The notes beneath the pieces are model-generated. The model searched no databases, was not told where the DNA came from, and saw only the letters and a program-made list of their open reading frames with translations. A DNA stretch of 29,927 bases from a virus, in the IMG/VR virus record IMGVR_UViG_3300012001_000029, positions 1 to 29,927 of that record, one strand, 5' to 3'. Below, piece after piece: positions 5,629 to 19,580 of this stretch. The position numbers and the translations under genes were made by a program. The first letter of the stretch is position 1. Every line of letters begins with the position of its first letter.

Positions 5629-5738
5629 AGTAAAGGTTCCTTGAGTTTAGAACGGTGGTGAACGTCCGGTTCACTTCGGTACTTCAGAACAACATCAAAC
5701 TACACACTCATTATTATCTAAAGTTACTTTGAACGCTA

Positions 5739-5766
5739 GTTCTGTGTGCGTTCTGTGTGCGTTCTG
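5739..5766. repeat. Tandem 11-bp direct repeats (iteron-like)
   Basis: GTTCTGTGTGC occurs at 5739-5749 and 5750-5760, followed by a partial third copy GTTCTG (5761-5766). An 11-base period places the copies on one face of the helix, as in iterons or cooperative operators. Confidence 0.6.
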
Positions 5767-5834
5767 ACAGCTTAAAGTTAGACTGAAACGTCATAAGAAC
5801 TTTAGATATCTGACAGTATCGCATATATAGGGTA

Positions 5835-5850
5835 AGTCTTATATAAGACT
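5835..5850. repeat. Perfect 16-bp palindrome
   Basis: AGTCTTATATAAGACT is fully self-complementary with a TATATA-like centre. This is a typical shape for a dimeric DNA-binding protein site. Confidence 0.7.
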
Positions 5851-5851
5851 G

Positions 5852-5882
5852 GATTTAACAATTGACCCTTAATTGTTAAATC
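5852..5882. repeat. Perfect 12-bp inverted repeat with 7-base loop
   Basis: GATTTAACAATT (5852-5863), GACCCTT, AATTGTTAAATC (5871-5882). It begins one base after the 16-bp palindrome. The stem is AT-rich, so a DNA-level site (operator or origin element) is more likely than a terminator. Confidence 0.7.
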
Positions 5883-5898
5883 ACCAAAACAGTGCAAA

Positions 5899-6183
5899 AT
5901 GCCCGAACGGCCTAGGTTGAACGATCAAGCAGGATTCGAGGCAATGTGGCTTCAGCAAATATCGGCGCACTGCGCGCTTTCTGATAGGATTTAAACCGTA
6001 TTGCATAAAAGCAACTATGCCTGTTTTTTGAGCAAATTCCGCATTGTGAAACCCGAAAACGTTGTCATAATGATAACGGATCACGGCGGTTTCGACTGGT
6101 TATTCGCGGCGCTGTTGACGGCACTGTTGACGGTACCACTTAGTGCCAGCAGGCAACTATGCGGCGCGTACCGCCTACCCTAA
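5899..6183 (+). pseudogene. Possible small gene interrupted by one in-frame stop
   Basis: From ATG 5899 the frame reads MPERPRLNDQAGFEAMWLQQ and on to SDRI, meets TAA at 5992-5994, then stays open in the same frame to 6183. The second part contains a hydrophobic stretch (FDWLFAALLTALLTVPLSA) suggestive of a membrane helix, encoded partly by a 12-base tandem repeat (6109-6132). No ribosome site precedes the ATG. It could be a remnant, two small ORFs, or chance, since the opposite strand is also open here. Confidence 0.25.
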
Positions 6184-6209
6184 AAATAGCTATCACTCCT
6201 ATCAACTTT

Positions 6210-6233
6210 TTGACATTCCCGTAAAAGTTACTT
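6210..6233 (+). promoter_or_regulatory. Dispersed element copy A (TTGACA-8-AAAGTTACTT)
   Basis: TTGACA at 6210-6215 and AAAGTTACTT at 6224-6233. A -10 at the expected distance is only T/A-rich (TTTTAA), so as a promoter it is weak. It lies 77 bases upstream of copy B. Confidence 0.5.
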
Positions 6234-6286
6234 TTTAAAATTTTTTAATTTTCATCCATCAAATTTAGTTGTCATTTTAACAACAT

Positions 6287-6315
6287 TTGACACCTGCGTA
6301 AAGTTGCTTTAGAGT
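6287..6315 (+). promoter_or_regulatory. Promoter with dispersed element copy B (TTGACA-7-AAAGTTGCTT)
   Basis: TTGACA (6287-6292), exactly 17 bases, then TAGAGT (6310-6315). The last ten spacer bases are AAAGTTGCTT. The expected start site (about 6322) nearly coincides with the ATG at 6323, so the transcript may be leaderless. It is probably the promoter at the head of the structural operon. Confidence 0.55.
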
Positions 6316-6322
6316 TCTTGCC

Positions 6323-6640
6323 ATGAAACCACTCCTGCAACTTCCTGAGCACATAATCAAGCGTGTCCAGCAGCGCCTAATGACTGGCAGAGAGGCAGCA
6401 GAAACCCTTGGCATATCCGAGCAGTACTTCTGCCAACTCTTCAAGCCTTATACCAGGATCGCAGGCATCACCTCCACCAAGCGCCACGCCATCTCACTCA
6501 TCACCAGCGCACGCCACGAATTTCGCAAGCAACTTGCCGACGATATCCGCGCCAAGCGCAAGACAATCGCACAAGCAGCTTTAGCGGGCAACTGCACCGA
6601 GCGCACAATCTACCGCTACCTCAACGGGGAACACCAATGA
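6323..6640 (+). CDS. Helix-turn-helix DNA-binding protein, first gene of the late arm
   Basis: The 105-residue basic protein has two helix-turn-helix-like segments: about residues 19-45 (LMTGREAAETLGISEQYFCQ) and about 76-101 (RKTIAQAALAGNCTERTIYR, then YLNG). Between them is a basic linker helix. Two HTH units in a short protein fit either a transcription regulator of the late genes or a DNA-recognition subunit of the packaging machinery. The 7049-7462 product is the better small terminase by position. No clear SD is seen. The start site expected from the promoter lies at the ATG. The gene overlaps the next by ATGA. Confidence 0.65.
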   Translation: MKPLLQLPEHIIKRVQQRLMTGREAAETLGISEQYFCQLFKPYTRIAGITSTKRHAISLITSARHEFRKQLADDIRAKRKTIAQAALAGNCTERTIYRYLNGEHQ

Positions 6641-6867
6641 GAATCTCCGCTCATGAAGACAGCCCAGACTTCAACATGATGTACGCCTATGCGACTGTCA
6701 CGCTGGACGGTGTAGCCATCCGGGGTGTGATCGACGCAGATGAAGAGGCAGGCGAACTCACCGTCTACCTGTTCGGCGAGGACGGCAGAGTTCTCGTAGA
6801 GGGTGACGAAGCTGTTACTGGCACCGTCCACGGCCTCGTGAAAATCTCTTTCCCGACCATCCAATGA
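6637..6867 (+). CDS. Small acidic beta-rich hypothetical protein (76 aa)
   Basis: The ATG overlaps the stop of the HTH gene. The protein (MRISAHEDSPDFNMMYAYAT and on) alternates short strands with turns (VTLDGVAIRGVIDADEEAGE, LTVYLFGEDGRVLVEG), giving a probable small beta-barrel or sandwich. It is acidic, has no signal peptide or metal motif, and matches no family I can name. The gene order HTH, this gene, SH3-like gene, small terminase is tightly coupled, so a packaging-related role is plausible but unproven. Confidence 0.6.
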   Translation: MRISAHEDSPDFNMMYAYATVTLDGVAIRGVIDADEEAGELTVYLFGEDGRVLVEGDEAVTGTVHGLVKISFPTIQ

Positions 6868-7073
6868 CCACCACCCGCGAAGGCATCACCGTCGCAGTCG
6901 GTCAACGGTGGGAGTCGCTCGACCAGCGCGATTACCTGCGCGGCACGATCACCGCAGTCACACAAACCCAAGCCACCTTAAAGACGCAGACACGCACGCT
7001 CGTCCTGGCAATCGACAAGATGCACAAACACAGCACAGGATGGAAGCTATGGCACTCAAACGCATCAACCTAG
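6864..7073 (+). CDS. SH3-like small protein (69 aa)
   Basis: The start overlaps the previous stop as ATGA. The sequence VGQRWESLDQRDYLRGTITA, then TLKTQTRTLVLAIDKM and TGWKLW, has the five-strand pattern of small phage SH3/KOW-like proteins (G-x-R/V-W at the front, a basic strand, G-W/Y-x-L at the end). Such domains often bind nucleic acid or other small proteins. Its 3' end overlaps the small terminase start (7049) by 25 bases in another frame. The fold call is from pattern only. Confidence 0.55.
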   Translation: MTTTREGITVAVGQRWESLDQRDYLRGTITAVTQTQATLKTQTRTLVLAIDKMHKHSTGWKLWHSNAST

Positions 7074-7462
7074 AGCCGAAGGCACCCGACGCACCAGCAG
7101 CGCTCCCAGACGACTCTGAGGCACTCCTGGTGCTCCGTAACGAGATCGACAGGAAGCTCAACCTCGGCCTCGATCAACTCGACATGGCGAATGAACTCTC
7201 GCTGCAGTACCGGCGTGCGAACGACCTCTACGCCGAAGTTCTACAGGACAAGCAGATACCTACCAACCAAAAGGCCCAGGTACTCAACACCTTGTCCAAC
7301 GTCCTGAAGTCGATCACTGAGTCCTCACAGGTCACGTTCTCCATCGCCCGTCAGAAGAAGATCGAAGCGGCCACACTTGCGGCGGTGCGCGACTTACCGA
7401 AGGAAGCGAAAGACAAATTTTTCAGCATGTTCAAAGAATTTCTAGGCCCAGATGTCGAATGA
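7049..7462 (+). CDS. Probable terminase small subunit
   Basis: The start is set at ATG 7049 (MALKRINLEPKAPDAPAALP) with AGGA 8 bases upstream. An earlier ATG at 6908 would translate a non-protein-like arginine/histidine-rich stretch inside the SH3-like gene. The 137-residue protein is acidic and helical (VLRNEIDRKLNLGLDQLDMA, then NQKAQVLNTLSNVLKSITES), as expected for the oligomerising core of a small terminase, and it ends 11 bases inside the large-subunit gene. Position and size are the main evidence. The protein lacks an obvious HTH, which may be supplied by the 6323-6640 product. Confidence 0.6.
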   Translation: MALKRINLEPKAPDAPAALPDDSEALLVLRNEIDRKLNLGLDQLDMANELSLQYRRANDLYAEVLQDKQIPTNQKAQVLNTLSNVLKSITESSQVTFSIARQKKIEAATLAAVRDLPKEAKDKFFSMFKEFLGPDVE

Positions 7463-9179
7463 AATCCAAAATTACTACGACCAGCTTCACGCCGCAGCGT
7501 ACAACCGCTACGACCTTGCAGACGCTGCCCGTTACATCACCGAGAAGACCTTCATTAAAGGCCAGCCGTTCTCGTTTGAAGACTTTCCGTTCCAAGAGGC
7601 TGCTCTATCGGATACGAGCAAGAATCTTTGCTTCCAGAAACCCGCGCAAGTTGGTTGCAGTGAGATGGTGGGGCGGTACGCACTTGCGCTGAGTCGCATC
7701 ATCCCTTGCTTCACGACGATCTACGTAGCGCCGTTCAGTCATGACGCCAACATCTTCATGACGACCCGCATCAAGCCGATCATCACTGAATCTCCCGACC
7801 TGAAAGACAACCTTGACCCTACTATCGACAACACCGAGATTAAAGGATTTGGTAGTTCCCTCCTTTTCGCACGTGGAGCTTCAGGCACAACTCAGGCTCT
7901 TTCAATTCCAGCAGACCTTCTTATCTTCGATGAGCTTGATAAAGCCAATGCAGATATTGTCGGTCAGTACAGCAGCCGACTACGCGCCTCCCGCTGGAAA
8001 CTCACGAGGAAGCTCTCTACGCCCACTTTAAAGGGCCGTGGGATCAACCTTGCGATACAAACGACAAGAAGGTGGCATTATGTGTGCAAATGTCACCATT
8101 GCAACAACGTTTTCATCCCAGACTACGAAGAACATGTACATATTCCTGGTTTTGATGGTGAAAAGAAGGAAATAACACGCGAATTACTGTCGATTATTAG
8201 CTGGAAACAGGCTGTTTTACTGTGCCCAAGGTGCGGCAAAGAGCCTAACCTCCACAAGGAAAATCGCTTCTGGCTGCTCGAAAATCCGAACGATAATTTC
8301 GATGACGACTACAGCTACATCATCTCGCCATTCGACGCGCCGAAAATCCACACAGCAGCCTCGATTACCAAGGAAATCACCAACTACAACACCTACGGAG
8401 AGGCCCAGAATCAGGTGCTGGGGAAGGTTTCTACCGATACCCAGGCCCAACTGACCGAGGAGGACATTGAGGGCTGTATGACGCTCTCTCCGCTCGACAG
8501 CAGCAGCCTGCACTGCATGGGGTGCGACATGGGCCTGACTTGCACCATCATGATTGGACGCCTCTCACCAGAAGGAATTCTTCTGATCGTGCATCGTGAG
8601 AAGGTCTTGATGACCAACTTTGAGATTCGGCGGCGTGAGCTGGCCGTCAAGTACCGCGTGCTCATCACTGTGTGCGACATCCAGCCCTACACCGACATGA
8701 TTTACCGGATGCAGAAATCGGACAAGAACCTCTTCGGCGGTCTTTACGTTGACACCAAAGGGTCGCCGACGTTCGAGATCAAGCACGTCGATGAGAAACT
8801 CAGCGAAGGCAAACTGCCGGTCCATCAGGCGCGTATCCACCGCAACAACGGTTTCGACAACCTGCTCGACATGATCAAGAAGAGGTTGGTGCTATGGTCG
8901 GCGCAGGGCGGCGTGATCGACGGCGAGATGAAGCTGCACTTCACTGACATGAAGCGCGTCCAGGTGTTCGACAAGTTCAACGAGCTGGTCTACACCTGGG
9001 AGAAGTCTGACAAGGGCGTCGATCACTGGCACCACACGGCGCTATACCTGCTGACCGCCTGCCGCCTGATGCCTACCGCAAGTTATGATGTCGCGTTCGA
9101 CGGCTTCCCACTTGTCAGAGTCTTCAAAGTTCGCACCAAAGAACCCGAGCGAAGTAATTTACAAATCATCCAGAGGTAA
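7452..9179 (+). CDS. terL: Terminase large subunit, GpA-like
   Basis: This 575-residue packaging ATPase/nuclease has the GpA-family layout. A Walker A-like loop lies at about 62-71 (QKPAQVGCSE), Walker B at about 156-163 (LLIFDELD), and a coupling motif follows at STPTLKGRGI (about 189-198). A zinc site is formed by CKCHHC (212-217) and LCPRCG (257-262). The RNase H-like nuclease has GCDMG (Asp359), VCDIQ (Asp409) and KGVDHWHHTALY (Asp524), the usual three acidic positions. The length is close to other GpA-type proteins. It would translocate DNA into the prohead through the portal and cut the concatemer. It overlaps the small subunit by 11 bases. Confidence 0.95.
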   Translation: MSNEIQNYYDQLHAAAYNRYDLADAARYITEKTFIKGQPFSFEDFPFQEAALSDTSKNLCFQKPAQVGCSEMVGRYALALSRIIPCFTTIYVAPFSHDANIFMTTRIKPIITESPDLKDNLDPTIDNTEIKGFGSSLLFARGASGTTQALSIPADLLIFDELDKANADIVGQYSSRLRASRWKLTRKLSTPTLKGRGINLAIQTTRRWHYVCKCHHCNNVFIPDYEEHVHIPGFDGEKKEITRELLSIISWKQAVLLCPRCGKEPNLHKENRFWLLENPNDNFDDDYSYIISPFDAPKIHTAASITKEITNYNTYGEAQNQVLGKVSTDTQAQLTEEDIEGCMTLSPLDSSSLHCMGCDMGLTCTIMIGRLSPEGILLIVHREKVLMTNFEIRRRELAVKYRVLITVCDIQPYTDMIYRMQKSDKNLFGGLYVDTKGSPTFEIKHVDEKLSEGKLPVHQARIHRNNGFDNLLDMIKKRLVLWSAQGGVIDGEMKLHFTDMKRVQVFDKFNELVYTWEKSDKGVDHWHHTALYLLTACRLMPTASYDVAFDGFPLVRVFKVRTKEPERSNLQIIQR

Positions 9180-9181
9180 TT

Positions 9182-9382
9182 ATGACCCTTGCTCACGAGC
9201 TGCCGAGGCAGCAGAGGCGCTGCCGCCAGATTCTCGAAAATGCCTTAGCCATCGGCGCACCCGGAGTTTTCCTGGTTGCGTTCCTGCACGAGGCGCTGGC
9301 TCGCGCAGAAGAGGCGGCTGCGTCCAACGACCTTGCGCTGATGGTCTCCTGCTGCATAGAACTCCAGTCTTTCAAGGAGTGA
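9182..9382 (+). CDS. Small conserved-type phage protein between terminase and portal (66 aa)
   Basis: GAGG lies 5 bases upstream of the ATG, two bases after the terminase stop. The protein begins MTLAHELPRQQRRCRQILEN with a basic helix, continues with a hydrophobic one (GAPGVFLVAFLHEALARAEE) and ends with a third (LALMVSCCIELQSF). The three-helix pattern resembles small proteins often found between large terminase and portal in betaproteobacterial phages, of unknown function. A head-joining gpW-like role would fit the position, but the sequence does not show the gpW pattern. Confidence 0.6.
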   Translation: MTLAHELPRQQRRCRQILENALAIGAPGVFLVAFLHEALARAEEAAASNDLALMVSCCIELQSFKE

Positions 9383-9383
9383 T

Positions 9384-9623
9384 ATGCGCAAGCCCTTCCC
9401 TGTGCTGCACCCTCCAGAAGGCTGCACGGCCCATGTTAAGTGGAATTCTTTGGACGATCTGTGGGCACAGAAAATGCACGGGCAAGACCTCGCATGGTTA
9501 GCCTCCCGAGGAGGTCTCAACATCCACGAAATCGCCAGGAATATCAGCCACACGGACCTCTACCACACCAAGCTGACCGATGACGCTGCCGTCGCGCTCG
9601 TGAACTTTATCGCGTTCAAGTAA
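9384..9623 (+). CDS. Hypothetical protein (79 aa)
   Basis: AAGGAG precedes the ATG, which lies one base after the previous stop. The protein reads MRKPFPVLHPPEGCTAHVKW, then SLDDLWAQKMHGQDLAWLAS, and then an HTH-like stretch (GGLNIHEIARNISHTDLYHT). The latter could be a small DNA-binding motif (about residues 43-62), but the match is loose. The role is unknown. It ends a transcription unit, and its stop codon is inside a copy of the dispersed element (9618-9641). Confidence 0.55.
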   Translation: MRKPFPVLHPPEGCTAHVKWNSLDDLWAQKMHGQDLAWLASRGGLNIHEIARNISHTDLYHTKLTDDAAVALVNFIAFK

Positions 9624-9641
9624 CTTTGGCCTCAATGTCAA
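9618..9641 (-). promoter_or_regulatory. Dispersed element copy C, reverse orientation
   Basis: On the minus strand: TTGACA (9641-9636), 8 bases, AAAGTTACTT (9627-9618). It overlaps the stop codon of the 9384-9623 gene and precedes the portal gene. No -10 follows at the right distance on the minus strand, so promoter activity there is unlikely. Confidence 0.5.
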
Positions 9642-9646
9642 AATCG

Positions 9647-9676
9647 TTGACGCCAAAGCAGCTTTCGTGACAGTAT
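9647..9676 (+). promoter_or_regulatory. Candidate promoter upstream of the portal gene
   Basis: TTGACG (9647-9652), 18 bases, CAGTAT (9671-9676). The -35 is good and the -10 poor. The spacer contains AAAGCAGCTTT, a palindrome resembling the AAAGTTACTTT core. Confidence 0.3.
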
Positions 9677-9713
9677 CCGCAACATAGTCGATTCGCTCAA
9701 CCACTGGCACCCA

Positions 9714-11324
9714 ATGGCAGATAAACCCAATACTGAAGCTGTACCTGCCACACGAGATCGGTTTGGCGTCCTACTGACTTCGCCAGGACTCAGCTACAGC
9801 GCCAAAGGTGTGTCGCCTCCGCAGGCTCCAAAAGGTGGGGGCGGTGCCGGTCCTCTCACTCCCGTCCCACCACCGAAAGCGCCTAGCTCACAGCAATCGA
9901 TTCCTTCGTTCTGGAAGTCTGCTGTCGCCACCACGGCGCAGATGGTCAAGACGGACCTTAACGTCGCTAACACCGATCTTACGAACACGTTCCGTCTCGG
10001 CGCGAACACACCTGCAGTTATCCGCAACCTTGCCAGGGTCAACCCTGACTTGTCGGCAGCATTGTCGGCCTATCTGCGCGTGGGCATACCGGAGAAATTC
10101 ACCTGCATCGCTCGCAATCCTGACGGTTCGTTCAACCGTGACGCGACCTTGCTGGCGATGGCGATCCTCGACCGCTTCAACCTGATGCCTGACTACTCGA
10201 ATGGCTTTAGCCAAGTCTCCAGCCTGCGCACGGTCTGTGAGGCACTGGCGAAAGAAATCTTCATCGAAGGCGCGTGCTCAATGGAGCTGGTGCTCGACAA
10301 GGGACGGATGCCGCTGAAGTTCCAGCCGGTCGCTGTTTCGCAACTGATCTTCTACCAAGACGGTGACGGCACCAAGCCGGTCCAGCGTCTCGGTGGTGTC
10401 GATACCGACCTCGACATCCCTACGTTCTTCTTCACGCAGCTCGACGCGGACCTGTTGAACGTCTACCCTATCAGCCCTTGGGAAGCCGCAGTGCAGCCGG
10501 TGCTGGCAGGGACTACCTTCTTATCCGATCTGCGCAGGGTATGCTCACGGCACGTCTACCCGCGCTACGACTTGAAGATCGACGAAGACAAGCTGCGCAA
10601 GCGCATCCCTCCAGAGATACTGAACGACAAAGACCAGCTCTCGCTCTACCTCAACAGCATTCTCTCTGAAGTCGAGACGGCGATCAACAACATGGGCGTC
10701 GAGGAGGCAGTGATCCACTTCGACTTCTTCGAGATCAAGTACATCGAAGGCGGCGGTCAGGACGTGCCAAACACGTTCGATACCGTCAAGAGCATCTACG
10801 ACGCCAAGATCGCAACTGGTGCCAAGACCATGCCGAGCATCCTGGGACACGGCACTGGCACCCAGAACACGGCCTCGACCGAAACGATGGTGTTCATGAT
10901 GTCGGCGAACGGCATGGTGCGGCTGAAGCTCAACGAGATTCTCAGCAAGGGCATGACCCTTGCGGTACGGCTGTTCGGTATGGACGTGACTTGCGAGTTC
11001 AAGTTTGCAGATATCGAGTTGCGCCCCGAGTCGGAGTTGACCGCGTTCCGCGTGATGAAGCAGTCACAAATTCTGGAGCAGCTTTCCTACGGCTTTATCA
11101 CCGACGACGAGGCTTCGTTGGCCTTGACGGGGCGCTTGACGCCAACCGGCTTCAAGCCTCTCTCAGGCACGCAGTTCCTGCAACTGAACGCAGCCAAGCT
11201 GAACCCGAACGACAACCAACTTGGGAACCAGCAGGGCGCTCTCACGCAGGACGTGAAGCCGACCACACCAACACAACCGAAAGGGCCGGTGAAGAAGGCT
11301 GGCCTCAACCTCGTAGGAGATTAA
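9714..11324 (+). CDS. Portal protein
   Basis: This 536-residue protein sits directly after the terminase block and before the protease, the usual portal place. A proline/glycine-rich N-terminal tail (about 1-60) leads into helical segments with RNLARVNPDLSAALSAYLRV (about 102-121), a wing region (about 140-260), SPWEAAVQPVLAGTTFLSDL (about 255-274) and the long clip/stem helices with SEVETAINNMGVEEAVIHFD (about 318-337). The C-terminal part (GFITDDEASLALTGRLTP) matches the end of many portals. It would form the dodecameric ring that holds the terminase and later the connector. There is only one possible ATG, and no SD is visible before it, which is unusual beside its neighbours. Confidence 0.85.
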   Translation: MADKPNTEAVPATRDRFGVLLTSPGLSYSAKGVSPPQAPKGGGGAGPLTPVPPPKAPSSQQSIPSFWKSAVATTAQMVKTDLNVANTDLTNTFRLGANTPAVIRNLARVNPDLSAALSAYLRVGIPEKFTCIARNPDGSFNRDATLLAMAILDRFNLMPDYSNGFSQVSSLRTVCEALAKEIFIEGACSMELVLDKGRMPLKFQPVAVSQLIFYQDGDGTKPVQRLGGVDTDLDIPTFFFTQLDADLLNVYPISPWEAAVQPVLAGTTFLSDLRRVCSRHVYPRYDLKIDEDKLRKRIPPEILNDKDQLSLYLNSILSEVETAINNMGVEEAVIHFDFFEIKYIEGGGQDVPNTFDTVKSIYDAKIATGAKTMPSILGHGTGTQNTASTETMVFMMSANGMVRLKLNEILSKGMTLAVRLFGMDVTCEFKFADIELRPESELTAFRVMKQSQILEQLSYGFITDDEASLALTGRLTPTGFKPLSGTQFLQLNAAKLNPNDNQLGNQQGALTQDVKPTTPTQPKGPVKKAGLNLVGD

Positions 11325-11325
11325 G

Positions 11326-11487
11326 ATGCAACAATCCGTAGAAGAATTGACATTCGCTGCGCTGCCAATTTACCGGCACATCATCTGCGGGCGCATCGTC
11401 TCCACGCAGCCTGTCGGCGACGGTACGCAGCACTGCTCTGCCTGCGAGAGCCGCCCTCCAGCTACTGAGTTCGAGGTGGTGCCATGA
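11326..11487 (+). CDS. Short cysteine-containing protein (53 aa)
   Basis: An ATG two bases after the portal stop, preceded by AGGAG at good spacing, opens MQQSVEELTFAALPIYRHII followed by CGRIVSTQPVGDGTQHCSAC and ESRPP. The C-x(n)-C-x2-C arrangement, with a nearby His, could be a small zinc ribbon. The stop overlaps the protease ATG (ATGA at 11484). Strong translation signals on both sides support a real gene. The function is unknown. Confidence 0.6.
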   Translation: MQQSVEELTFAALPIYRHIICGRIVSTQPVGDGTQHCSACESRPPATEFEVVP

Positions 11488-12938
11488 TCGAATTCTGGGC
11501 AGGTACCGAGGCTGCTTATCAGGTGGTCATCGAAGCGCAGACCAAGATCGCGGCAGGACTCGCCATCAAGGCTGGCTATTTCGACGAGATGATGGCTTCG
11601 CTGCCTCCTCTCGTCAGCGTTTCTGACGGCATTGCCACAGTCGATGTGGTAGGGAGTCTTGTTCCTGGCGAAGCCGGTATCGGCCGCATCTTCGGAACAT
11701 TAGGCTACACGGATATCAATAACGCCCTCGTGGACGCTGCCAGCAACCCCGATGTCAAGCAGATCGTCATGAACTTCTCGACCGGAGGCGGCAGCGTTAA
11801 TGGCGTGAACGACCTCGGCAAGATGATCCAAAAGATCGATGCTGTGAAGCCGGTCGTAGGCTTCACCAACGACCGCTCAATGAGCGCTGGCTATTGGCTC
11901 ATGTCCTCGGCGCGTCAGGTCGTCCTTGCGGACACGGCGATGGTTGGCTCTATCGGTGTCCTGACAGTTCATATGGAACGCTCGGCACAGATGGCGCAGA
12001 ACGGCGTCAAAGCTACTGTGCTGCGGGCCGGTGAGTTCAAAGCACTTGCGAATCCTTACGAGCCTTTGACTCCTGCAGCGACTGCAGAGATTCAAGGCCA
12101 ACTCAGCGATCTCTATGACATGTTCGCTGGACACGTACAGGATATGCGGGGTCTTTCAGCGTCAGAAATGAACGCTGCAGGCCAAGGTCGTGAGTTTATG
12201 GGCAAGCGAGCTATCTCCTCTGGGCTTGCAGACAAGGTGCTATCTGCTGACAAACTTTCCGCGTATGTCAAAAAGGTTGACACTACAAAACCCTCACCTG
12301 ATAATCGCAACAAATCTAAAGGAGCTTCTGCCATGATCCGTAAAGACCTCACCGCTATTCAACTCGCAGCCATCGCGGCAGGCGCTCCTACTGCGCAGGT
12401 TATGCTGCTTGGTGAGCCTCAAGTTGCTTTGACCGCCGAGCAGATCGCAGCTGCTGCCGTAACCGCCCAAGCAGCTTTGGACGAAACGGCACGCATCGCA
12501 GCCGAGGCTGCTACTGCAGAGACTGCGCGTGTCGCAGCCGCTGCTGAAGCCGCGAAGCCCATCGTCGTTGCAGCTCCTGCAGTCGATGCCGTCGTGGCGC
12601 ACCTGACGCAGCAACTCGCTGCGGCCAACGCCGATGTGGTTGCGGCCAAGATCGAAGCTGCCAGCTTCAAGGCATTCTCTGAGACACACGAAGGTCTCCT
12701 AAACATCGCTCGTGAGTCAGTCGGCAAAATGGCTGTCGCTCTGGGAGGTTCGAACGATCAATCAATGGCGCTCGACGCAAAAGCGGCCATCACCGAATAC
12801 GCACGCATCACCGACGTATTCAAAACCAAATTCAAGGTGGGTCAGGTTTCGGCAGCGACCCCTGTCGAGGGTCAGCAAGTTGTTGCTGACCCCCGGTTTG
12901 CTTCTGCCGTCAAATCCGCACCTTCCGCACGTAAATAA
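11484..12938 (+). CDS. Prohead protease (S49/SppA-like) with C-terminal scaffold region
   Basis: Residues about 45-265 are a ClpP-fold S49 peptidase: GSLVPGEAGIGRIFG, NFSTGGGSVNGVNDL (oxyanion turn, about 97-111), the nucleophile Ser134 in DRSMSAGYWLM, and the general base Lys186 in AGEFKALANPYEPLTP. Residues about 285-484 are alanine-rich and coiled-coil-like, with long helices, as in the scaffold half of lambda C/Nu3. In such phages the protease removes scaffold and trims capsid proteins during prohead maturation. GAGGTGG lies ahead of the ATG. An internal SD and start at 12333 would make the scaffold alone. Confidence 0.9.
   Translation: MIEFWAGTEAAYQVVIEAQTKIAAGLAIKAGYFDEMMASLPPLVSVSDGIATVDVVGSLVPGEAGIGRIFGTLGYTDINNALVDAASNPDVKQIVMNFSTGGGSVNGVNDLGKMIQKIDAVKPVVGFTNDRSMSAGYWLMSSARQVVLADTAMVGSIGVLTVHMERSAQMAQNGVKATVLRAGEFKALANPYEPLTPAATAEIQGQLSDLYDMFAGHVQDMRGLSASEMNAAGQGREFMGKRAISSGLADKVLSADKLSAYVKKVDTTKPSPDNRNKSKGASAMIRKDLTAIQLAAIAAGAPTAQVMLLGEPQVALTAEQIAAAAVTAQAALDETARIAAEAATAETARVAAAAEAAKPIVVAAPAVDAVVAHLTQQLAAANADVVAAKIEAASFKAFSETHEGLLNIARESVGKMAVALGGSNDQSMALDAKAAITEYARITDVFKTKFKVGQVSAATPVEGQQVVADPRFASAVKSAPSARK
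12333..12938 (+). CDS. Probable scaffold protein from internal in-frame start (201 aa)
   Basis: Inside the protease gene, AAAGGAG (12318-12324) lies 8 bases before ATG 12333, giving MIRKDLTAIQLAAIAAGAP and the whole alanine-rich helical C-terminus. The SD is stronger than the one at the protease start. Lambda makes Nu3 scaffold from within C in the same way, and the point of initiation here is exactly at the boundary between peptidase and scaffold parts (residue 284). The product would be needed in many more copies than the protease. Confidence 0.65.
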   Translation: MIRKDLTAIQLAAIAAGAPTAQVMLLGEPQVALTAEQIAAAAVTAQAALDETARIAAEAATAETARVAAAAEAAKPIVVAAPAVDAVVAHLTQQLAAANADVVAAKIEAASFKAFSETHEGLLNIARESVGKMAVALGGSNDQSMALDAKAAITEYARITDVFKTKFKVGQVSAATPVEGQQVVADPRFASAVKSAPSARK

Positions 12939-12949
12939 GGAGTAACAAC

Positions 12950-13510
12950 ATGTCCAAAGCACATTTCATCGTTCCTACCGGCCCATCGGGCGACGTTACC
13001 ACCGTCCGTCTCGGTGCCAGCAATGCCGCAGCCGACAACCTGACTCTTTCCGACGCCGGTAAGCTGGTCAAGCTGGTCGGCGAATCCCGTTTCGACCTGT
13101 GCGTTGTCGGTGATGCGATTGAAGGTTTGATTCTGTCGATTGAGCAGGCCACCGCAGGCGGCTTCTCGGTCGGTTCGCTCCTGGAAGAGCCTGAGCACTT
13201 TTTCGCCACCGCTGACGGCCTACAAGCCACCCCAGGCGTCGGCGCAATCGCGGTCGGTGACTTCGTGGTCGCAGGCACGATTACCGCCAAAGGCACTGCC
13301 CTGACGGCCTACCCGAAGGTCTGCAAAGCTACCGTGCAGCCTGGGGTAGCCGTTGTTGCAGCAGATAATTTGGTGGCTACCATTAACGCCGCACTGGTTA
13401 CTGTGGCTGCTCAGACGGCATATACCATGCACGCCTGCCGCGTGGTGAGTCTCGGCCAAGCCGGTACCGGCGCAGTCGGTACCACCATCGTCGTCCAACC
13501 GCTCAACTAA
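12950..13510 (+). CDS. Probable capsid decoration/stabilisation protein
   Basis: The 186-residue protein has AAGGAG ahead of its ATG and lies between protease/scaffold and major capsid, where head decoration proteins such as lambda gpD are encoded. It is beta-rich, with a glycine/alanine/valine composition (ATAGGFSVGSLLEEPEHFF, then TPGVGAIAVGDFVVAGTITA). It ends with a strand typical of trimeric spike proteins (GTGAVGTTIVVQPLN). It would bind the outside of the expanded capsid. Identity rests on position, size and composition rather than a named motif. Confidence 0.65.
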   Translation: MSKAHFIVPTGPSGDVTTVRLGASNAAADNLTLSDAGKLVKLVGESRFDLCVVGDAIEGLILSIEQATAGGFSVGSLLEEPEHFFATADGLQATPGVGAIAVGDFVVAGTITAKGTALTAYPKVCKATVQPGVAVVAADNLVATINAALVTVAAQTAYTMHACRVVSLGQAGTGAVGTTIVVQPLN

Positions 13511-13539
13511 GTCGCACCCACCAAAAAGGAGTCACAATC

Positions 13540-14766
13540 ATGGCATTTTATTACGACAAAAACGGTGCGATTCAGCAAGCTCCGAAGCTGGACGAAAAGA
13601 TTTATCGCGCCGCACATGACGAAAACAAAACCGTCGCCGCTTACATCAACGGGCTGTACCCTGACGGGAACACCAAGGACGCCACAGTGTTTCAACAACT
13701 GTGCGCCTCGGAAGGTCTGATCGTCGGCAAGAACGACATCTTCGGCCTGCGTGCGCCAAGCATCGCCGATATCCTGGACGGCAAAAGCGGCTTTCAAGCC
13801 GCCAGCCCGACCAACACGGAAGGAAAGGGTACACCTTGGGGTTCGCAATCGCGCATCTTGTTCCCTGCCGCCGTCATTCAGTTGATCGAAGATGCAGTTC
13901 AGCCCGACCGTCATTCGGACGAGGTGATGTTCCAAGAGATGATCGCCATGTCACAAGGCATCGACGGCGACACGTATCTGCAACCTGTCCTGAGCTACGC
14001 CAATACTGGTGGCGCGAATGCAGGTACCAATGCAGCCAAGGCACAGCGCGTCTCGCAACTCGGCGACGTGCCGACCATGCTGACGCTGACCACCAGCGAC
14101 CGCGCCCGTAACATCCCGACCTATGGCGTCGGTATCGAGATGTCGGACCAAGCCATGCGCGCCACCACGCTGGACTTGCTGGCCCTGACGATCGGTCGTT
14201 TCCTGCTGATCGAAAAAGACCAACGCGTCTACACGTACCTGTCCAACCTGTTTGCTGGCGATCTCGACCAGAACACAGGTGCTGTGTCAGCCGTGACAAC
14301 CGTCGCCCTGGACCCCGCTTGCGCAGCAGGCACTGTGACGCACAAGTCGTGGATTCAGTTCTTGGCGCGTAATCGCAAAAAGCGCAAGATCACCCACTGC
14401 GTCTCCGACATCGCAACTTATCTCAAAGTCGAAGGCCGCACTGGTCGCCCAGGCACCAACGCTTACGATCCTACGATTGCTCGTATCGATCCTCAAGCAC
14501 GCGCCATGAACGTGCCTTTCGGCTCCGACGTGCGCTGGTTCTTGGTGGACGCTGCAGTAGCTGGTGGCCCTGTACCAGCGGACACCGTGTGGGCTTTGGA
14601 CTCCCGTCAGGCAGTGATGATGGTGTCCAACACCCAGGCGGCTTACCAAGCCACTGAGCAGTTTGTGCTGCGTCGTAGCTCAAATTTAGTTATTCACTGG
14701 GCGGAAGAAGTTTGCAGATTGTATGCCGCAGACTTGACACCATTCGACGTACTCACAGTGGCCTAA
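13540..14766 (+). CDS. Major capsid protein
   Basis: The 408-residue protein has AAAGGAG upstream, lies after scaffold and decoration genes, and is followed by a strong terminator, as expected for the most abundant product. The N-terminal arm (about 1-95) could be the part trimmed or rearranged. The middle has features of HK97-fold capsids: TPWGSQSRILFPAAVIQLIE (about 107-126), LTTSDRARNIPTYGVGIEMS (about 185-204), the long backbone helix (LLALTIGRFLLIEKDQRVYT) and a late P-domain/A-domain stretch with YDPTIARIDPQARAMNVPFG. It would form hexamers and pentamers of the icosahedral head. Confidence 0.85.
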   Translation: MAFYYDKNGAIQQAPKLDEKIYRAAHDENKTVAAYINGLYPDGNTKDATVFQQLCASEGLIVGKNDIFGLRAPSIADILDGKSGFQAASPTNTEGKGTPWGSQSRILFPAAVIQLIEDAVQPDRHSDEVMFQEMIAMSQGIDGDTYLQPVLSYANTGGANAGTNAAKAQRVSQLGDVPTMLTLTTSDRARNIPTYGVGIEMSDQAMRATTLDLLALTIGRFLLIEKDQRVYTYLSNLFAGDLDQNTGAVSAVTTVALDPACAAGTVTHKSWIQFLARNRKKRKITHCVSDIATYLKVEGRTGRPGTNAYDPTIARIDPQARAMNVPFGSDVRWFLVDAAVAGGPVPADTVWALDSRQAVMMVSNTQAAYQATEQFVLRRSSNLVIHWAEEVCRLYAADLTPFDVLTVA

Positions 14767-14785
14767 TAAGTATCTGCCAAGTAGA

Positions 14786-14809
14786 ACGGCCTCTTCGGAG
14801 GCCGTTTTT
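14786..14809 (+). terminator. Rho-independent terminator after the capsid gene
   Basis: ACGGCCTC (14786-14793), tetraloop TTCG, GAGGCCGT (14798-14805), then TTTTT. The cUUCGg loop makes the 8-bp stem very stable. Confidence 0.9.
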
Positions 14810-14815
14810 ATTTGT

Positions 14816-14837
14816 GTAACTTTCACAGGAATGTCAA
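14816..14837 (-). promoter_or_regulatory. Dispersed element copy D, reverse orientation
   Basis: On the minus strand: TTGACA (14837-14832), 8 bases, AAAGTTAC (14823-14816). The first 11 bases, TTGACATTCCT, nearly match copy A (TTGACATTCCC). It sits 6 bases past the terminator T run and just upstream of the plus-strand promoter at 14843. Confidence 0.5.
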
Positions 14838-14842
14838 AAAAC

Positions 14843-14871
14843 TCGACATCCTATACACCGAGCAGGATAAT
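14843..14871 (+). promoter_or_regulatory. Probable promoter of the connector/tail unit
   Basis: TCGACA (14843-14848, 5 of 6), exactly 17 bases, GATAAT (14866-14871, 5 of 6). The expected start site near 14878 lies in another core-like sequence, AAGCAACTTT (14877-14886). It restarts transcription after the capsid terminator. Confidence 0.65.
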
Positions 14872-14904
14872 CCGACAAGCAACTTTAACCTTACAGGACA
14901 CCCT

Positions 14905-15117
14905 ATGAAAATCGTAGACCGCGACGGCAAATGGTTTATCAACAACGCCCAATTCCGTATGGTGGATGGCGACTCAGGTACCTTCTTTGAGCCTGGAGAG
15001 GCTACCAAAGCAACTGAGACAGCTTGGCTCGGTAAGCAGCCTCACATCGTCGAAGTCGAAGACCCGAACGCACCTGAAGGCGAGGTCGTACCAAAACGCA
15101 CTCGCGGGCAGAAGTAA
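14905..15117 (+). CDS. Small structural-region protein (70 aa)
   Basis: The start is ATG 14905 (MKIVDRDGKWFINNAQFRMV), with AGGA 8 bases upstream. A longer reading from 14812 would begin inside the terminator-proximal leader. The protein is a short beta-rich unit (VDGDSGTFFEPGEATKATET) ending in a charged tail (VVPKRTRGQK). Its position after the capsid suggests a head-associated or connector role. No family is recognised. Confidence 0.55.
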   Translation: MKIVDRDGKWFINNAQFRMVDGDSGTFFEPGEATKATETAWLGKQPHIVEVEDPNAPEGEVVPKRTRGQK

Positions 15118-15120
15118 GCC

Positions 15121-15600
15121 ATGACACTACTCACATCCTTTGCCACTTGCGACGACATCCGAGCGACCTTGGGTGTGACCCCTGAAGAGCTTCCCGACAC
15201 GGTTTTGGCGTCTCCCATCTACCTGACGAAGCTCCAAGAAGCTCTGCGCAAGGTCAGCGCGACTCTTGAGGCAGAGTTCATTGCGTTGACTCCGGTGACG
15301 GCAAAAGAGACACGGCTATCGAATCTGGTCAAAGCCTACAGCGCCTACTTTATTGGTTACGACCTTTTCAGCACCCTCCCCGTCTTCGCGCCGAAAACAG
15401 TCAAAGATCAGCACGCGGAGACCCAACGCATCCTGTCCCCTTTTGTTCAGCTCAAGGACGATCTGACTTACTCTACAGGCTACTTGAGACGCACCTTGCA
15501 GGAAGCCTACGCAGACTACAAAAACATCGTAATCGACGATCCCGTAGTGCGCCGCCTGCTCTCCAGCGTAGGACTGGGTGTAGACCCAGTTACAGGATGA
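15121..15600 (+). CDS. Probable head-tail connector (adaptor-like) protein
   Basis: The 159-residue helical protein starts with TCDDIRATLGVTPEELPDTV, a pattern seen in gp6-like adaptors and other connector proteins that bind below the portal. The rest is two or three long helices (LTKLQEALRKVSATLEAEFI, then RLSNLVKAYSAYFIGYDLFS) and a C-terminal tail (VVRRLLSSVGLGVDPVTG) that could insert into a portal groove. It is followed by an ATGA overlap with the next gene. The assignment is by position and helical pattern. Confidence 0.6.
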   Translation: MTLLTSFATCDDIRATLGVTPEELPDTVLASPIYLTKLQEALRKVSATLEAEFIALTPVTAKETRLSNLVKAYSAYFIGYDLFSTLPVFAPKTVKDQHAETQRILSPFVQLKDDLTYSTGYLRRTLQEAYADYKNIVIDDPVVRRLLSSVGLGVDPVTG

Positions 15601-16439
15601 GGCTCGTTGACGCCGCCAAGGTGTTCCTCAAGGAGCAGGCATACGACGCCTACTCAGGCGCTGCGCTGTTCAAGTGCCAAGCCGCTGCGTTCAATGACAT
15701 GCGGTCGCCAGGAGCCACCGCCAAGCGGCGTACTTTGTCAGCTTTGGCCGGAAGCGTCATCCCTACGAGGAGAGTGATCAAACTGTTCGGCGACTACCTG
15801 CTGGTCTCCCTTAAGACAAGTGACTCTTTTCTGGGTACCACTATCCGCGAGTCCTATGGGATGAAACTCTCATCCGATCTCCTGGCAGGGCTGACGCCGG
15901 GGAGAGCTTGTCTCGCTGCGGCAGGCACCTCTTTCTACGCGCACAAGAGTTATTTCAAGGATACGGTCAACACCTTGACCGACTCCGAGTACGACGTGCA
16001 ATGGAACGTCTTCATGTACCAAGGGGAGAATATCTCCAAGGGCTACTTCATGAGGGACGCCGCAGGGCTGCTATATCGCACCAGGAACAGCTATGTGGAC
16101 GTGGAAGGGTTCCGCGTAGCCGAAGCCGACGAACTCGACGCAGACGCGTTCCAGGCGGTTGTATTCGTGCATAACGCCGGGGCCATCGACCCAATCACCG
16201 ACGCGCCAGTGGCGAATGCAACGGCGACGAACTGCATCCAGGTGGATACTCCTAAGTTCTACCAGTTCCGCACACAGACGGAATCCAATATGAAGCCAGG
16301 AGACATAGCCGTGTTCATCGCCGCTTCGGTCATCGCGCCGAAGGTCTCTGCTGTGTTCACGATGGCCGGCAGAAAGTACACCGTCATTTCCGTGGTGCCG
16401 GAGCTGGACGCTTACGTGATGCACGCAAGGCTCGTGTGA
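15597..16439 (+). CDS. Probable head-tail joining structural protein (280 aa)
   Basis: Starts at an ATGA overlap. The N-terminal part (about 1-85) is basic, and the middle and C-terminal parts are strand-rich (SDSFLGTTIRESYGMKLSSD, then YDVQWNVFMYQGENISKGYF, and an end with MAGRKYTVISVVPELDAYVM). This is compatible with a head-closure or neck protein of the stopper kind, though it is larger than usual. No motif names it. The gene order (adaptor, this, gp10-like, terminator) is the standard connector order and is the main support. Confidence 0.5.
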   Translation: MRLVDAAKVFLKEQAYDAYSGAALFKCQAAAFNDMRSPGATAKRRTLSALAGSVIPTRRVIKLFGDYLLVSLKTSDSFLGTTIRESYGMKLSSDLLAGLTPGRACLAAAGTSFYAHKSYFKDTVNTLTDSEYDVQWNVFMYQGENISKGYFMRDAAGLLYRTRNSYVDVEGFRVAEADELDADAFQAVVFVHNAGAIDPITDAPVANATATNCIQVDTPKFYQFRTQTESNMKPGDIAVFIAASVIAPKVSAVFTMAGRKYTVISVVPELDAYVMHARLV

Positions 16440-16906
16440 AGCTCTCGATAGGCAATATTGATCCAGTCTTCGCGGAGTTGCTCAGGCTCGTGCAGGAGAA
16501 CCTCGACGCCCAGTTCCGCGAGAAGGTTGCCGCAATCTTCCGCACACTTGTTGTCTACACGCCGCAATGGTCGGGCGACCTTGCGAGTAACTGGCAGATG
16601 AACCTGACCGGGCAAGCGACATATTTACGGTGGGCAGGGAAGGTGGAGTGGACGCCAGAAGTAGCGAAGAGAGGTCCGTTCTTTTCGATGGGCTTGACGC
16701 CTGCCTCGGACTACGCACTGAAGCAAGCCCAGACGCTTGAGTACCACTACACGCAGTCTGTGTTCCTCGTCAACGCCACACCGCTGACACTGGCAGCGAA
16801 GACTGTGACCAGCGACAGCGACGGCAAGACCAAAAATCTGCGGCCGGAAAATTTGATCAACGGAGGCAAGGCGCTAATCGCTTTCGTTAAAGGGGAATAC
16901 TCATGA
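16436..16906 (+). CDS. Probable neck/tail completion protein (gp10/gpZ-like)
   Basis: The start is a GTG overlapping the previous TGA (GTGA). The protein contains VAAIFRTLVVYTPQWSGDLA followed by SNWQMNL. This R-x-L-V-x-x-T-P-x-x-S-G-x-L-x-x-N-W pattern is characteristic of HK97 gp10 and gpZ-like proteins, which complete the head-tail joint. The 156-residue length fits. The C-terminal part (NLINGGKALIAFVKGEY) is also usual for the family, with a G-G-x-A helix. It overlaps the next gene by ATGA. Confidence 0.75.
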   Translation: MKLSIGNIDPVFAELLRLVQENLDAQFREKVAAIFRTLVVYTPQWSGDLASNWQMNLTGQATYLRWAGKVEWTPEVAKRGPFFSMGLTPASDYALKQAQTLEYHYTQSVFLVNATPLTLAAKTVTSDSDGKTKNLRPENLINGGKALIAFVKGEYS

Positions 16907-17319
16907 TTCAAGAAGCCGCTCGACAGGAGATCGCTACTATCATCGCGGCGATGGTCGCCGCACATACCGACTACCCGCTGGTCGTCGAGACCAACAACCG
17001 CGACCCTGTGGACCAGACTACGCAGACCGACCCTTACTTCAAGGTGCAGATCAAGTGGCTCGGAGGCGAGCAGAAAGACCTCGGCCCTGCGCCAATGGTG
17101 GGGCAGTACGGGCAAATCCTACTGGCTGCGTGCGTCAAGGAAGGTTCAGGAGAGAAGGCTGCGAACGTGCTCATGGACTTCTGCGCGCCGTACTTCGAGC
17201 GCAAGGCACTTGCACTCCTGCAGACCGATATGTATCTGCCTATGAGCGACCCCATACTGCTCGGCTGGTACTACGTGACAGGGCTGGTTAATTTCAAGTG
17301 CTACCGCATCAGTGCTTAA
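16903..17319 (+). CDS. Probable tail terminator protein (gpU-like)
   Basis: The 138-residue protein begins with a helix (MIQEAARQEIATIIAAMVAA) followed by strands with a typical D-P-Y-F-K-V-Q-I-K-W-L-G segment and GQYGQILLAACVKEGSGEKA. It ends with LLGWYYVTGLVNFKCYRISA. This alpha/beta layout and the position just before the tail tube gene match tail terminators, which cap the tail at its correct length and bind the head connector. Confidence 0.7.
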   Translation: MIQEAARQEIATIIAAMVAAHTDYPLVVETNNRDPVDQTTQTDPYFKVQIKWLGGEQKDLGPAPMVGQYGQILLAACVKEGSGEKAANVLMDFCAPYFERKALALLQTDMYLPMSDPILLGWYYVTGLVNFKCYRISA

Positions 17320-17343
17320 ACTTTTCAGCGGATAGCAAAAATC

Positions 17344-17372
17344 TTGCCTTGCTAAATAAGCTGACGTACCAT
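17344..17372 (+). promoter_or_regulatory. Candidate promoter of the tail tube gene
   Basis: TTGCCT (17344-17349), 17 bases, TACCAT (17367-17372), each 4 of 6. No terminator separates this gene from the preceding unit, so it may only boost tube expression. Confidence 0.3.
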
Positions 17373-17397
17373 CCAATCTAATTTCCAGGAGAACTCC

Positions 17398-18633
17398 ATG
17401 ACTATTTTCGCAATCACCAACCGAGCAGGTTTGTCGTATATTCCTGAAGCCACTTTTGGAGTGACTCCTGTGGGTGGAAACGGCAAATCGCTGCGTTTCA
17501 CCGGCGAGTCGCTGGACTTCGCGCTGACCAAGACAGGCGACAAAGAAATTCGCCAGGACCGCCAAGAGTCGAGTTCGACCACGACCGATGCGAAGGCTTC
17601 GGGCGGCATCAAGACGCATATGCAGTATGCCGAATATGACCCCCTGATCGCAGCCTTGCTGCAGACGACTATCGCTGCCTACGGCACCGATGGTGTGGGT
17701 ACCACGTTCGCGGCTACGATGACCGCAACCACGATCACCGCAGGTGTTGCTCCAATCGGTACCAGTGACTTCACGACGCTGCGAGCAGGCCAGTGGTTCA
17801 AGCTGAACGCGCCGACCGGCACCAACGACGGAAAATGGCTGCGCGTCTCGACGATCACCCCGCCGACCACAACCGTCATCACGCTCGACGTGAGCACTCC
17901 TGCGCTGGTCGAAGGCCCAATCGCAGCTTCGTCCATCTCCTCCTGCCGCATGACCAACGGCGTGACGCAATCGTCCTTCACGCTTGAGCGCTCGGTCAAC
18001 AACATTGCTGTCCCTCTGTTCTTCACTTACAAGGGCTATACCGTCAGCAAAATGGCGGTCTCCTTCGCCTCTGGTTCTCTGACCGAACCGTCGTTCGACT
18101 TCATGGGTCAGAACATGGTCAAGGGTACTGCCAAGGTTGTTCCTGGCGTGATCGCGGCCTCGCAGACCTATAACATCCAGAACGGTGTGACAGGCGTCGG
18201 CAACATCTGGGAAGCCGGTACTCCGATGACCAACACGTCGATCAAGAAGTTCGACCTGAGCATCGACAACTCGCTGCGGCAGCAAGGCGCACTCGGTACT
18301 CTCGGTGCAGTCGGCATCGGTTCCGGCACCTTGAAAGTCACAGGCGCTGCCGAGATATATCTGGCAGACGGCGCACTGATCGATAAGTTCCTGGCCGACA
18401 CCTACACGTCGTTCACGATCTCGACCAAGGACTCTGCAGGCAACGGCTACGTGTACACGCTGCCGAAGGTGATGATCACGAAATGTACGACCGTCGCAGG
18501 CAGCAAGGACACCGACATGATGCTGTCGATCACTTGGGAAGCCAAGGCCGACTTGACCAACGCTACCGCAGCCCTACGTCAAACGATTTTCATCGACCGT
18601 CTTGGAGCTGCAGTGCCAATTAGCTTCGCCTAA
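17398..18633 (+). CDS. Major tail (tube) protein
   Basis: CAGGAG precedes the ATG. The 411-residue protein opens with a tube-like strand (NRAGLSYIPEATFGVTPVGG) and then KSLRFTGESLDFALTKTGDK, typical of tube subunits. About residues 90-190 are threonine-rich and Ig-like (ATMTATTITAGVAPIGTSDF, LRAGQWFKLN) and look like an inserted domain exposed on the tube. The C-terminal part returns to the tube fold with KVTGAAEIYLADGALIDKFL and ends in SITWEAKADLTNATAALRQT. A strong terminator follows, consistent with a high-copy product. Confidence 0.8.
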   Translation: MTIFAITNRAGLSYIPEATFGVTPVGGNGKSLRFTGESLDFALTKTGDKEIRQDRQESSSTTTDAKASGGIKTHMQYAEYDPLIAALLQTTIAAYGTDGVGTTFAATMTATTITAGVAPIGTSDFTTLRAGQWFKLNAPTGTNDGKWLRVSTITPPTTTVITLDVSTPALVEGPIAASSISSCRMTNGVTQSSFTLERSVNNIAVPLFFTYKGYTVSKMAVSFASGSLTEPSFDFMGQNMVKGTAKVVPGVIAASQTYNIQNGVTGVGNIWEAGTPMTNTSIKKFDLSIDNSLRQQGALGTLGAVGIGSGTLKVTGAAEIYLADGALIDKFLADTYTSFTISTKDSAGNGYVYTLPKVMITKCTTVAGSKDTDMMLSITWEAKADLTNATAALRQTIFIDRLGAAVPISFA

Positions 18634-18662
18634 GTTTATCCTGTGTGAGCTGTACCTTTATA

Positions 18663-18686
18663 CGCGGCCCTTGGGCCGCGTTTTTT
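18663..18686 (+). terminator. Rho-independent terminator after the tail tube gene
   Basis: CGCGGCCC (18663-18670), TT, GGGCCGCG (18673-18680), then TTTTTT. Perfect 8-bp GC-rich arms (fold-back loop of about 4 bases). Confidence 0.9.
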
Positions 18687-18689
18687 ATT

Positions 18690-18718
18690 TTGACAAATTT
18701 TCAAAGTTACTTCACAAT
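18690..18718 (+). promoter_or_regulatory. Promoter with dispersed element copy E (TTGACA-7-AAAGTTACTT)
   Basis: A perfect TTGACA (18690-18695), exactly 17 bases and CACAAT (18713-18718). The last ten spacer bases are AAAGTTACTT (18703-18712), the same position as in the promoter at 6287. The start site would be near 18725, ahead of GGAG and the gpG-like gene. Confidence 0.65.
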
Positions 18719-19532: not shown

Positions 19533-19558
19533 AAGCAACTTTGTTTTCAACTTGTCAG
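19533..19558 (-). promoter_or_regulatory. Partial copy of the dispersed element
   Basis: AAGCAACTTT (19533-19542), the reverse of AAAGTTGCTT, is followed by 10 bases and TGTCAG, one mismatch from TGTCAA. Spacing is 2-3 bases longer than in copies A-E, so it is listed as partial. Confidence 0.35.
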
Positions 19559-19580
19559 TAAGCACCTTTTAGCGGACAAT
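19552..19580 (+). promoter_or_regulatory. Probable promoter of the tape measure gene
   Basis: TTGTCA (19552-19557, 5 of 6), exactly 17 bases, GACAAT (19575-19580, 4 of 6). It lies between the chaperone terminator and the tape measure ribosome site, with a start near 19587. Confidence 0.5.

Follow-up and report, generated by a model that had tools for sequence, protein, structure and literature searches.

A repeated two-half element at predicted promoters of an uncultured siphophage, with a two-helix-turn-helix phage protein as its candidate regulator

What is the role of a motif of the form TTGACA-N7/8-AAAGTTRC that recurs in both orientations at gene boundaries of one phage, and which protein might read it? 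The question is raised by IMGVR_UViG_3300012001_000029, where the window analysed here is the entire 29.9-kb IMG/VR record, a fragment of a larger genome: the longer relatives of this phage have genomes of about 82-94 kb, and about two thirds of the phage genome lie outside the window. Rightward in the window run the terminase, portal, protease, capsid, tail and tape-measure genes. On the whole, the window has five copies of the element with zero mismatches, and all of them had been reported in an initial annotation of this DNA with 1-2 extra bases included at their ends. That annotation had overlooked a sixth copy, whose second half is a variant. The copies and the separate half-sites are as follows.

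5720..5727, plus strand: half-site AAAGTTAC, in the leftward intergenic region
6210..6231, plus strand: element copy TTGACA-N8-AAAGTTAC, exact match, backward upstream site of a predicted leftward minus-strand promoter
6287..6307, plus strand: element copy TTGACA-N7-AAAGTTGC, exact match, coinciding with the predicted promoter 6287..6315
9620..9641, minus strand: element copy TTGACA-N8-AAAGTTAC, exact match, backward relative to the portal gene
12250..12271, minus strand: sixth copy TTGACA-N8-AAGTTTGT, with a family-type second half, within the protease ORF
14816..14837, minus strand: element copy TTGACA-N8-AAAGTTAC, exact match, downstream of the major capsid gene and that gene's terminator-like hairpin
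14879..14886, minus strand: half-site AAAGTTGC, close to where the post-capsid transcript is predicted to start
18690..18710, plus strand: element copy TTGACA-N7-AAAGTTAC, exact match, coinciding with the predicted promoter 18690..18718
19535..19542, minus strand: half-site AAAGTTGC (GCAACTTT on the plus strand), 9 bp upstream of the predicted tape measure gene promoter

The earlier description of the copies as intergenic holds in that all five intergenic TTGACA hexamers of the window belong to the element and none of the 13 coding ones is followed by AAAGTTRC; it does not hold strictly for the copy at 9618 (9620..9641), which overlaps the stop codon of ORF 9384-9623. A terminator-like hairpin (18662-18681 and 14783-14808) directly precedes two of the copies, where several had been said to follow a terminator. 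The core had also been taken for an odd palindrome, but the 11-base palindrome AAAGTTACTTT is exact at 5720 and 6224 only, and the element is therefore asymmetric. When all spaced 6+6 dyads in the window are counted, TTGACA-7/8-AAAGTT is the most frequent with six copies, tied only by register-shifted versions of itself, and the maximum for any dyad in 200 order-2 Markov simulations, with separate models for coding and noncoding sequence, is four copies. This shows that the number and the gap of the sites are non-random.

The copies are also shown to keep a fixed geometry with predicted promoters. In all four gap-8 copies (6210, 9620, 12250, 14816), TGTCAA is followed on the opposite strand by a -35 (at least five of six matches to TTGACA) at a distance of 4-5 bp and then, after a spacing of 16-18 bp, by a -10. 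The gap-7 copies (6287, 18690) share another arrangement, TTGACA, 7 bp, AAAGTTRC, 2 bp and the -10, which bears out the earlier observation that two plus copies fill the end of a promoter spacer. The features concerned are listed below.

6177..6205, minus strand: predicted leftward promoter TTGATA-17-TAGGGT, which lies 4 bp past the TGTCAA in the copy at 6210
6287..6315, plus strand: predicted promoter TTGACA-17-TAGAGT for the gene 6323-6640, with TTGACA of the element as the -35
6323..6640, plus strand: 105-aa protein with two helix-turn-helix (HTH) units, candidate regulator
9647..9676, plus strand: predicted portal promoter TTGACG-18-CAGTAT, with the -35 exactly 5 bp after TGTCAA
12277..12305, plus strand: predicted internal promoter TTGACA-17-GATAAT for a nested scaffold, 5 bp after TGTCAA
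14843..14871, plus strand: predicted promoter TCGACA-17-GATAAT for the gene starting at 14905, 5 bp after TGTCAA
18690..18718, plus strand: predicted promoter TTGACA-17-CACAAT for the tail assembly chaperone gene (ATG 18747), with TTGACA of the element as the -35
19552-19580: predicted tape measure gene promoter TTGTCA-17-GACAAT, near the half-site 19535..19542

An independent promoter scan gives 6287, 14843 and 18690 as the best intergenic promoters, and the portal promoter 9647..9676 falls below its threshold. The promoter at 12277 is followed, still inside the protease gene, by AAAGGAG as ribosome-binding site and by an ATG at 12333 that is in frame and predicted to be a scaffold-type start, as expected for a nested scaffold; relatives have an equivalent internal promoter and ATG. 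The promoter at 6287..6315 has its ATG 7 nt past the -10, on account of which its transcript is predicted to be leaderless; the homologous promoter reads TTGGCA-17-CATACT-TATTGC-ATG in several relatives and has a weaker -35 in others. At the homologous place of the tail chaperone gene, TTGACA-17-NANNNT is present in many relatives. No convincing gene was placed behind the leftward promoter 6177..6205. The background chance per position is 0.0055 for such a -35 and 0.0005 for the -35 plus -10, these probabilities being approximate since the 4-5 bp rule was spotted after the sites were known, and no TTGACA outside the element in the window shows the opposite-strand geometry. A sigma-70 test on the element's own strand finds a -35/-10 pair at 16-18 bp in the two gap-7 copies and not in the backward copies. 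The initial annotation was right that no -10 follows the minus copies on the strand of the element itself; a predicted promoter on the other strand, 5 bp beyond each of them, had escaped it. Judged by these predictions, the gap-8 copies are not orphan sites, and their fixed distance from the predicted promoters points to initiation rather than elongation. An antitermination or other RNA-level element was set aside, both orientations occurring inside one transcribed block.

The relatives, which form with the window phage a family of large, uncultured siphophages, are encoded on 21 contigs, several of them 82-94 kb long, and near-duplicates were set aside to leave 18 contigs for the element counts. 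Their portal identity to the window phage is mostly about 54-59%, falling to 39% for the two outermost contigs. Named phages at a greater distance include Achromobacter JWF and Xylophilus Lumi. Close relatives were not found by a single-protein terminase search, nor was any match to the portal profile found in bacterial genomes. Ten long relatives give no match to the tyrosine integrase profile (PF00589) and thymidylate synthase, ligase and RdgC are among the conserved genes, which together make a lytic life style likely for the group.

None of the relatives searched carries the pattern in the exact form seen in the window. In the 18 relatives, a related form, TTGNCA-gap-WWGTTTGC, has 27 occurrences at gaps 8-10 (19 at gap 8, 7 at gap 9 and 1 at gap 10) and four at all 23 other gaps in the range 0-25, and of 48 occurrences of GCAAACWW followed by TGNCA, 35 are at gaps 8-10. 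The loci include at least five non-orthologous places in both orientations, orthologous copies not being independent of each other:

family element, upstream of a replication-module gene
family element, upstream of rdgC
family element, after terminase
family element, at the tail chaperone gene
family element, inverted, at the tail-tube gene
looser form of the family element, inverted, after the capsid gene

Site and orientation agree between the window phage and some relatives at two places, namely inverted behind the capsid gene and forward ahead of the chaperone gene. In the window phage the second half-site, hereafter the B half, has drifted to AAAGTTRC in all five intergenic copies of both orientations (AAAGTTAC or AAAGTTGC here, as compared with AAGTTTGC among the relatives), and the coding copy at 12250 alone retains a family-like form (AAGTTTGT). 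Taken by pattern, the element is conserved across the related phages in an altered form with a drifted second half; the conservation that the initial annotation had looked for is found for the element and not for its exact sequence. A strict pattern scan of viral contigs returned one further contig (L105), and the element was not found in the late regions of JWF and Lumi. A search of roughly 1.2 Mb of sequence from the relatives found no instance of the whole composite in which the B half is free of mismatches, and the inverted copy of the relatives stands about 9-11 bp from the -10, differing from the window geometry with the -35 at 5 bp. Backward copies had at first been supposed to work at the distance from the -10 seen in the relatives, a view given up when the spacing of 4-5 bp to the -35 became apparent. 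For the sites of the relatives, exact dyad counts took the place of a free EM position matrix, which had wandered off into AT-rich sequence; intergenic 8-mer enrichment in the relatives returned mostly terminators and orthologous blocks.

Concerning the protein that might read the element, the 6323-6640 product matches Pfam HTH_23 and HTH_29 above cut-off, and in its AF2 model (mean pLDDT 86) a 25-residue helix joins the two HTHs, as a helix joins those of MarA. The two-HTH protein is conserved upstream of terminase in the relatives, and among the 51 conserved proteins of the relative G001 it is the single match among the HTH families listed (25 of 28). No homologue was detectable in any record of the phage collection, named phages included, and fold searches for it gave no significant match. 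PHROG 836, a late transcriptional activator, is matched weakly by all five members of the first HTH-protein alignment (best E 2e-6) and, with E 1.7e-4, by the window protein over no more than residues 54-104; in the members inspected, those of the window and of G001, the match is confined to the C-terminal stretch with the second HTH. In the N-terminal HTH, recognition-helix residue 38 is Arg in 13 of 13 aligned relatives and Gln in the window protein, which keeps the RTI-Y/Q-R core of the C-terminal HTH. This Arg38 to Gln change parallels the loss of the family B half, as the kept C-terminal core parallels the kept TTGACA, a correlation seen in one lineage. The 6323-6640 protein is the best candidate for the regulator of the element. 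An HTH gene adjoining terminase could also be that of the small terminase subunit, an observation that counts against a regulator role.

We propose, rating the chances somewhat above even, that the element is an asymmetric two-half operator of a phage-encoded regulator, most likely the two-HTH protein, which would activate from backward sites and repress from forward ones; the earlier suggestion of a phage-encoded regulator at several unit boundaries gains support from the conserved element and the HTH candidate. The halves TTGACA and AAAGTTRC, separated by about one and a half turns of the helix, would each be read by one of the two HTHs, the protein presumably binding as a monomer that spans both halves. 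At the backward gap-8 sites (portal, nested scaffold, post-capsid gene and one leftward unit) the bound protein would recruit host sigma-70 RNA polymerase as a class-I-like activator, while at the forward gap-7 sites (its own gene and the tail chaperone gene) it would compete with sigma and so repress or autoregulate; promoter activity, binding and the division into activated and repressed copies are all inferred. Forward copies are also found at late genes (tail chaperone, ORF after terminase), which counts against equating forward with repressed. A further idea, which we put forward as a tentative and rather doubtful one, is that across this phage family orientation and spacing set the effect of the protein, a backward site 4-5 bp from the -35 activating and a forward site on the promoter repressing, and that in the window lineage the five intergenic half-sites switched together with the Arg-to-Gln change in a whole-regulon specificity switch. 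If half-site and recognition helix did drift as a pair, the rewiring of a whole regulon would become open to direct test.

Several other explanations have to be weighed against an operator of the two-HTH protein. The copies might be sigma-70 promoters with a fixed spacer in the extended -10 style, the minus copies being chance or relics. The gap-7 copies and most forward copies in the relatives are indeed good promoters, with the B half directly before the -10; however, the backward copies without an own-strand -10 retain both halves, the gap and the fixed distance to a second promoter, and in the window phage the second half shows one and the same drift in the intergenic copies, whichever way they point. 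We consider this explanation very unlikely, and the initial statement that the element is not simply a promoter agrees with the backward copies. As many phages recruit host factors, a host regulator might read the site instead of a phage protein, and phages of different hosts could equally differ in the B half. Yet the B half differs between the window phage and all relatives in step across the intergenic copies, as for a co-evolving phage regulator, and its change correlates with the change in the phage HTH, so that we take a host regulator to be unlikely.

The L5 stoperator site, which contains TGTCAA, had served the initial annotation as a comparison; on a reading of this kind a stoperator- or immunity-like repressor would silence all these units. 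The TGTCAA likeness may simply come from the element overlapping a -35 box or mimicking one. Like the stoperators of the L5 and TipsytheTRex repressors, the element is an asymmetric site repeated at many intergenic places, and in the L5-type case a monomeric repressor uses its two DNA-binding domains to read such sites in short intergenic spaces (PMC9283540); the forward copies here do overlap promoters. However, L5-type sites belong to a lysogeny repressor, are oriented with transcription and cease to work if reversed (PMC9283540), whereas three of the six copies in the window (two of the five known before) are inverted in one rightward late block, 9620, 12250 and 14816 standing against 6287 and 18690 among rightward genes. 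That the -35 stands at a constant distance suggests that initiation is acted on, the tyrosine integrase search in ten relatives gave no sign of lysogeny, and the second domain is a stoperator domain in L5 but an HTH in the window protein. The element does not qualify as an L5 stoperator, and we consider a silencing repressor improbable. Since about two thirds of the genome are not in the window, another regulator could be encoded there and bind the element, the two-HTH protein being a small terminase or having some other role. The gene adjoins terminase and a few members of the HTH-protein alignment match a small terminase PHROG weakly; against this, the promoter of the two-HTH gene itself carries a site, and no second HTH carrier is found among the G001 conserved proteins for the HTH families listed. 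This is possible but, in our estimation, doubtful.

For the two-HTH protein as regulator, the nearest likeness is to MarA/SoxS/Rob/RamA and the marbox, where a small two-HTH monomer binds an asymmetric two-half site in opposite directions according to promoter class, RamA facing one way at sigma-70 promoters of class I, where its site is upstream, and the other way at those of class II, where the site overlaps (PMC8811837). In the window, backward upstream and forward overlapping sites at predicted sigma-70 promoters form an arrangement of this AraC/MarA-like kind. Unlike the AraC family, the window protein reaches 17.1 bits for HTH_AraC with a cut-off of 26.6 and resembles the AraC DNA-binding domain 2k9s only at E 1.6 and TM 0.29; unlike the marbox, the site has another sequence and gap, and its forward copies cover the whole spacer. 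The orientation rule, if true, would extend the two-HTH monomer logic of MarA/RamA to a phage. No description of transcription control in this siphophage group was found, and the analysis supplies a predicted late regulon with its sites and a candidate 105-aa regulator for uncultured large siphophages. Most sites in the window are at late genes, which, with the weak profile match, recalls the late activators of PHROG 836. In addition, phage-encoded p4 and p6 of phi29 are described as turning early promoters off and a late one on (PMC3100819), to which the two-HTH protein would be analogous in logic only.

In the relatives, a conserved -10 element is kept in the arrangement CATACT-TATTGC-ATG 5' of the two-HTH gene and of the portal gene, and because of its position the transcription start is predicted to fall at the ATG itself. 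The message of the two-HTH regulator is thus predicted to be leaderless in the relatives, as is that of the portal gene in several of them. Also 5' of the two-HTH gene in the relatives lies a noncoding AT-rich stretch, found at 5700-6290 in the window, whose repeats in the relatives include AAACTTTTC and ATAAATTAC; in both, the stretch may be an origin or a region of early control.

Within the S49-type protease gene, window 12277-12340 contains an internal promoter, a ribosome-binding site and an in-frame ATG, an arrangement kept in the relatives; they probably mark a scaffold gene nested there that has a promoter of its own. Another promoter, TTGCNN-17-GATAAT, is conserved in the relatives 3' of the chaperone gene and immediately 5' of the tape measure gene, its -10 being held in the hairpin CCCGTTAGATAATGNCAATCTAACGGG.

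The family element is present 5' of the relatives' RdgC-type exonuclease gene, located as follows:
L012:14518-15456, RdgC-type exonuclease
G019 70385-71236, RdgC-type exonuclease

In Xylophilus phage Lumi (L104), a distant relative, palindromic repeats of the TTACTAG-N-CTAGTAA type, probably another operator, lie around leftward genes:
L104 728-743, repeat near leftward genes
L104 1275-1317, repeat near leftward genes
L104 2154-2169, repeat near leftward genes
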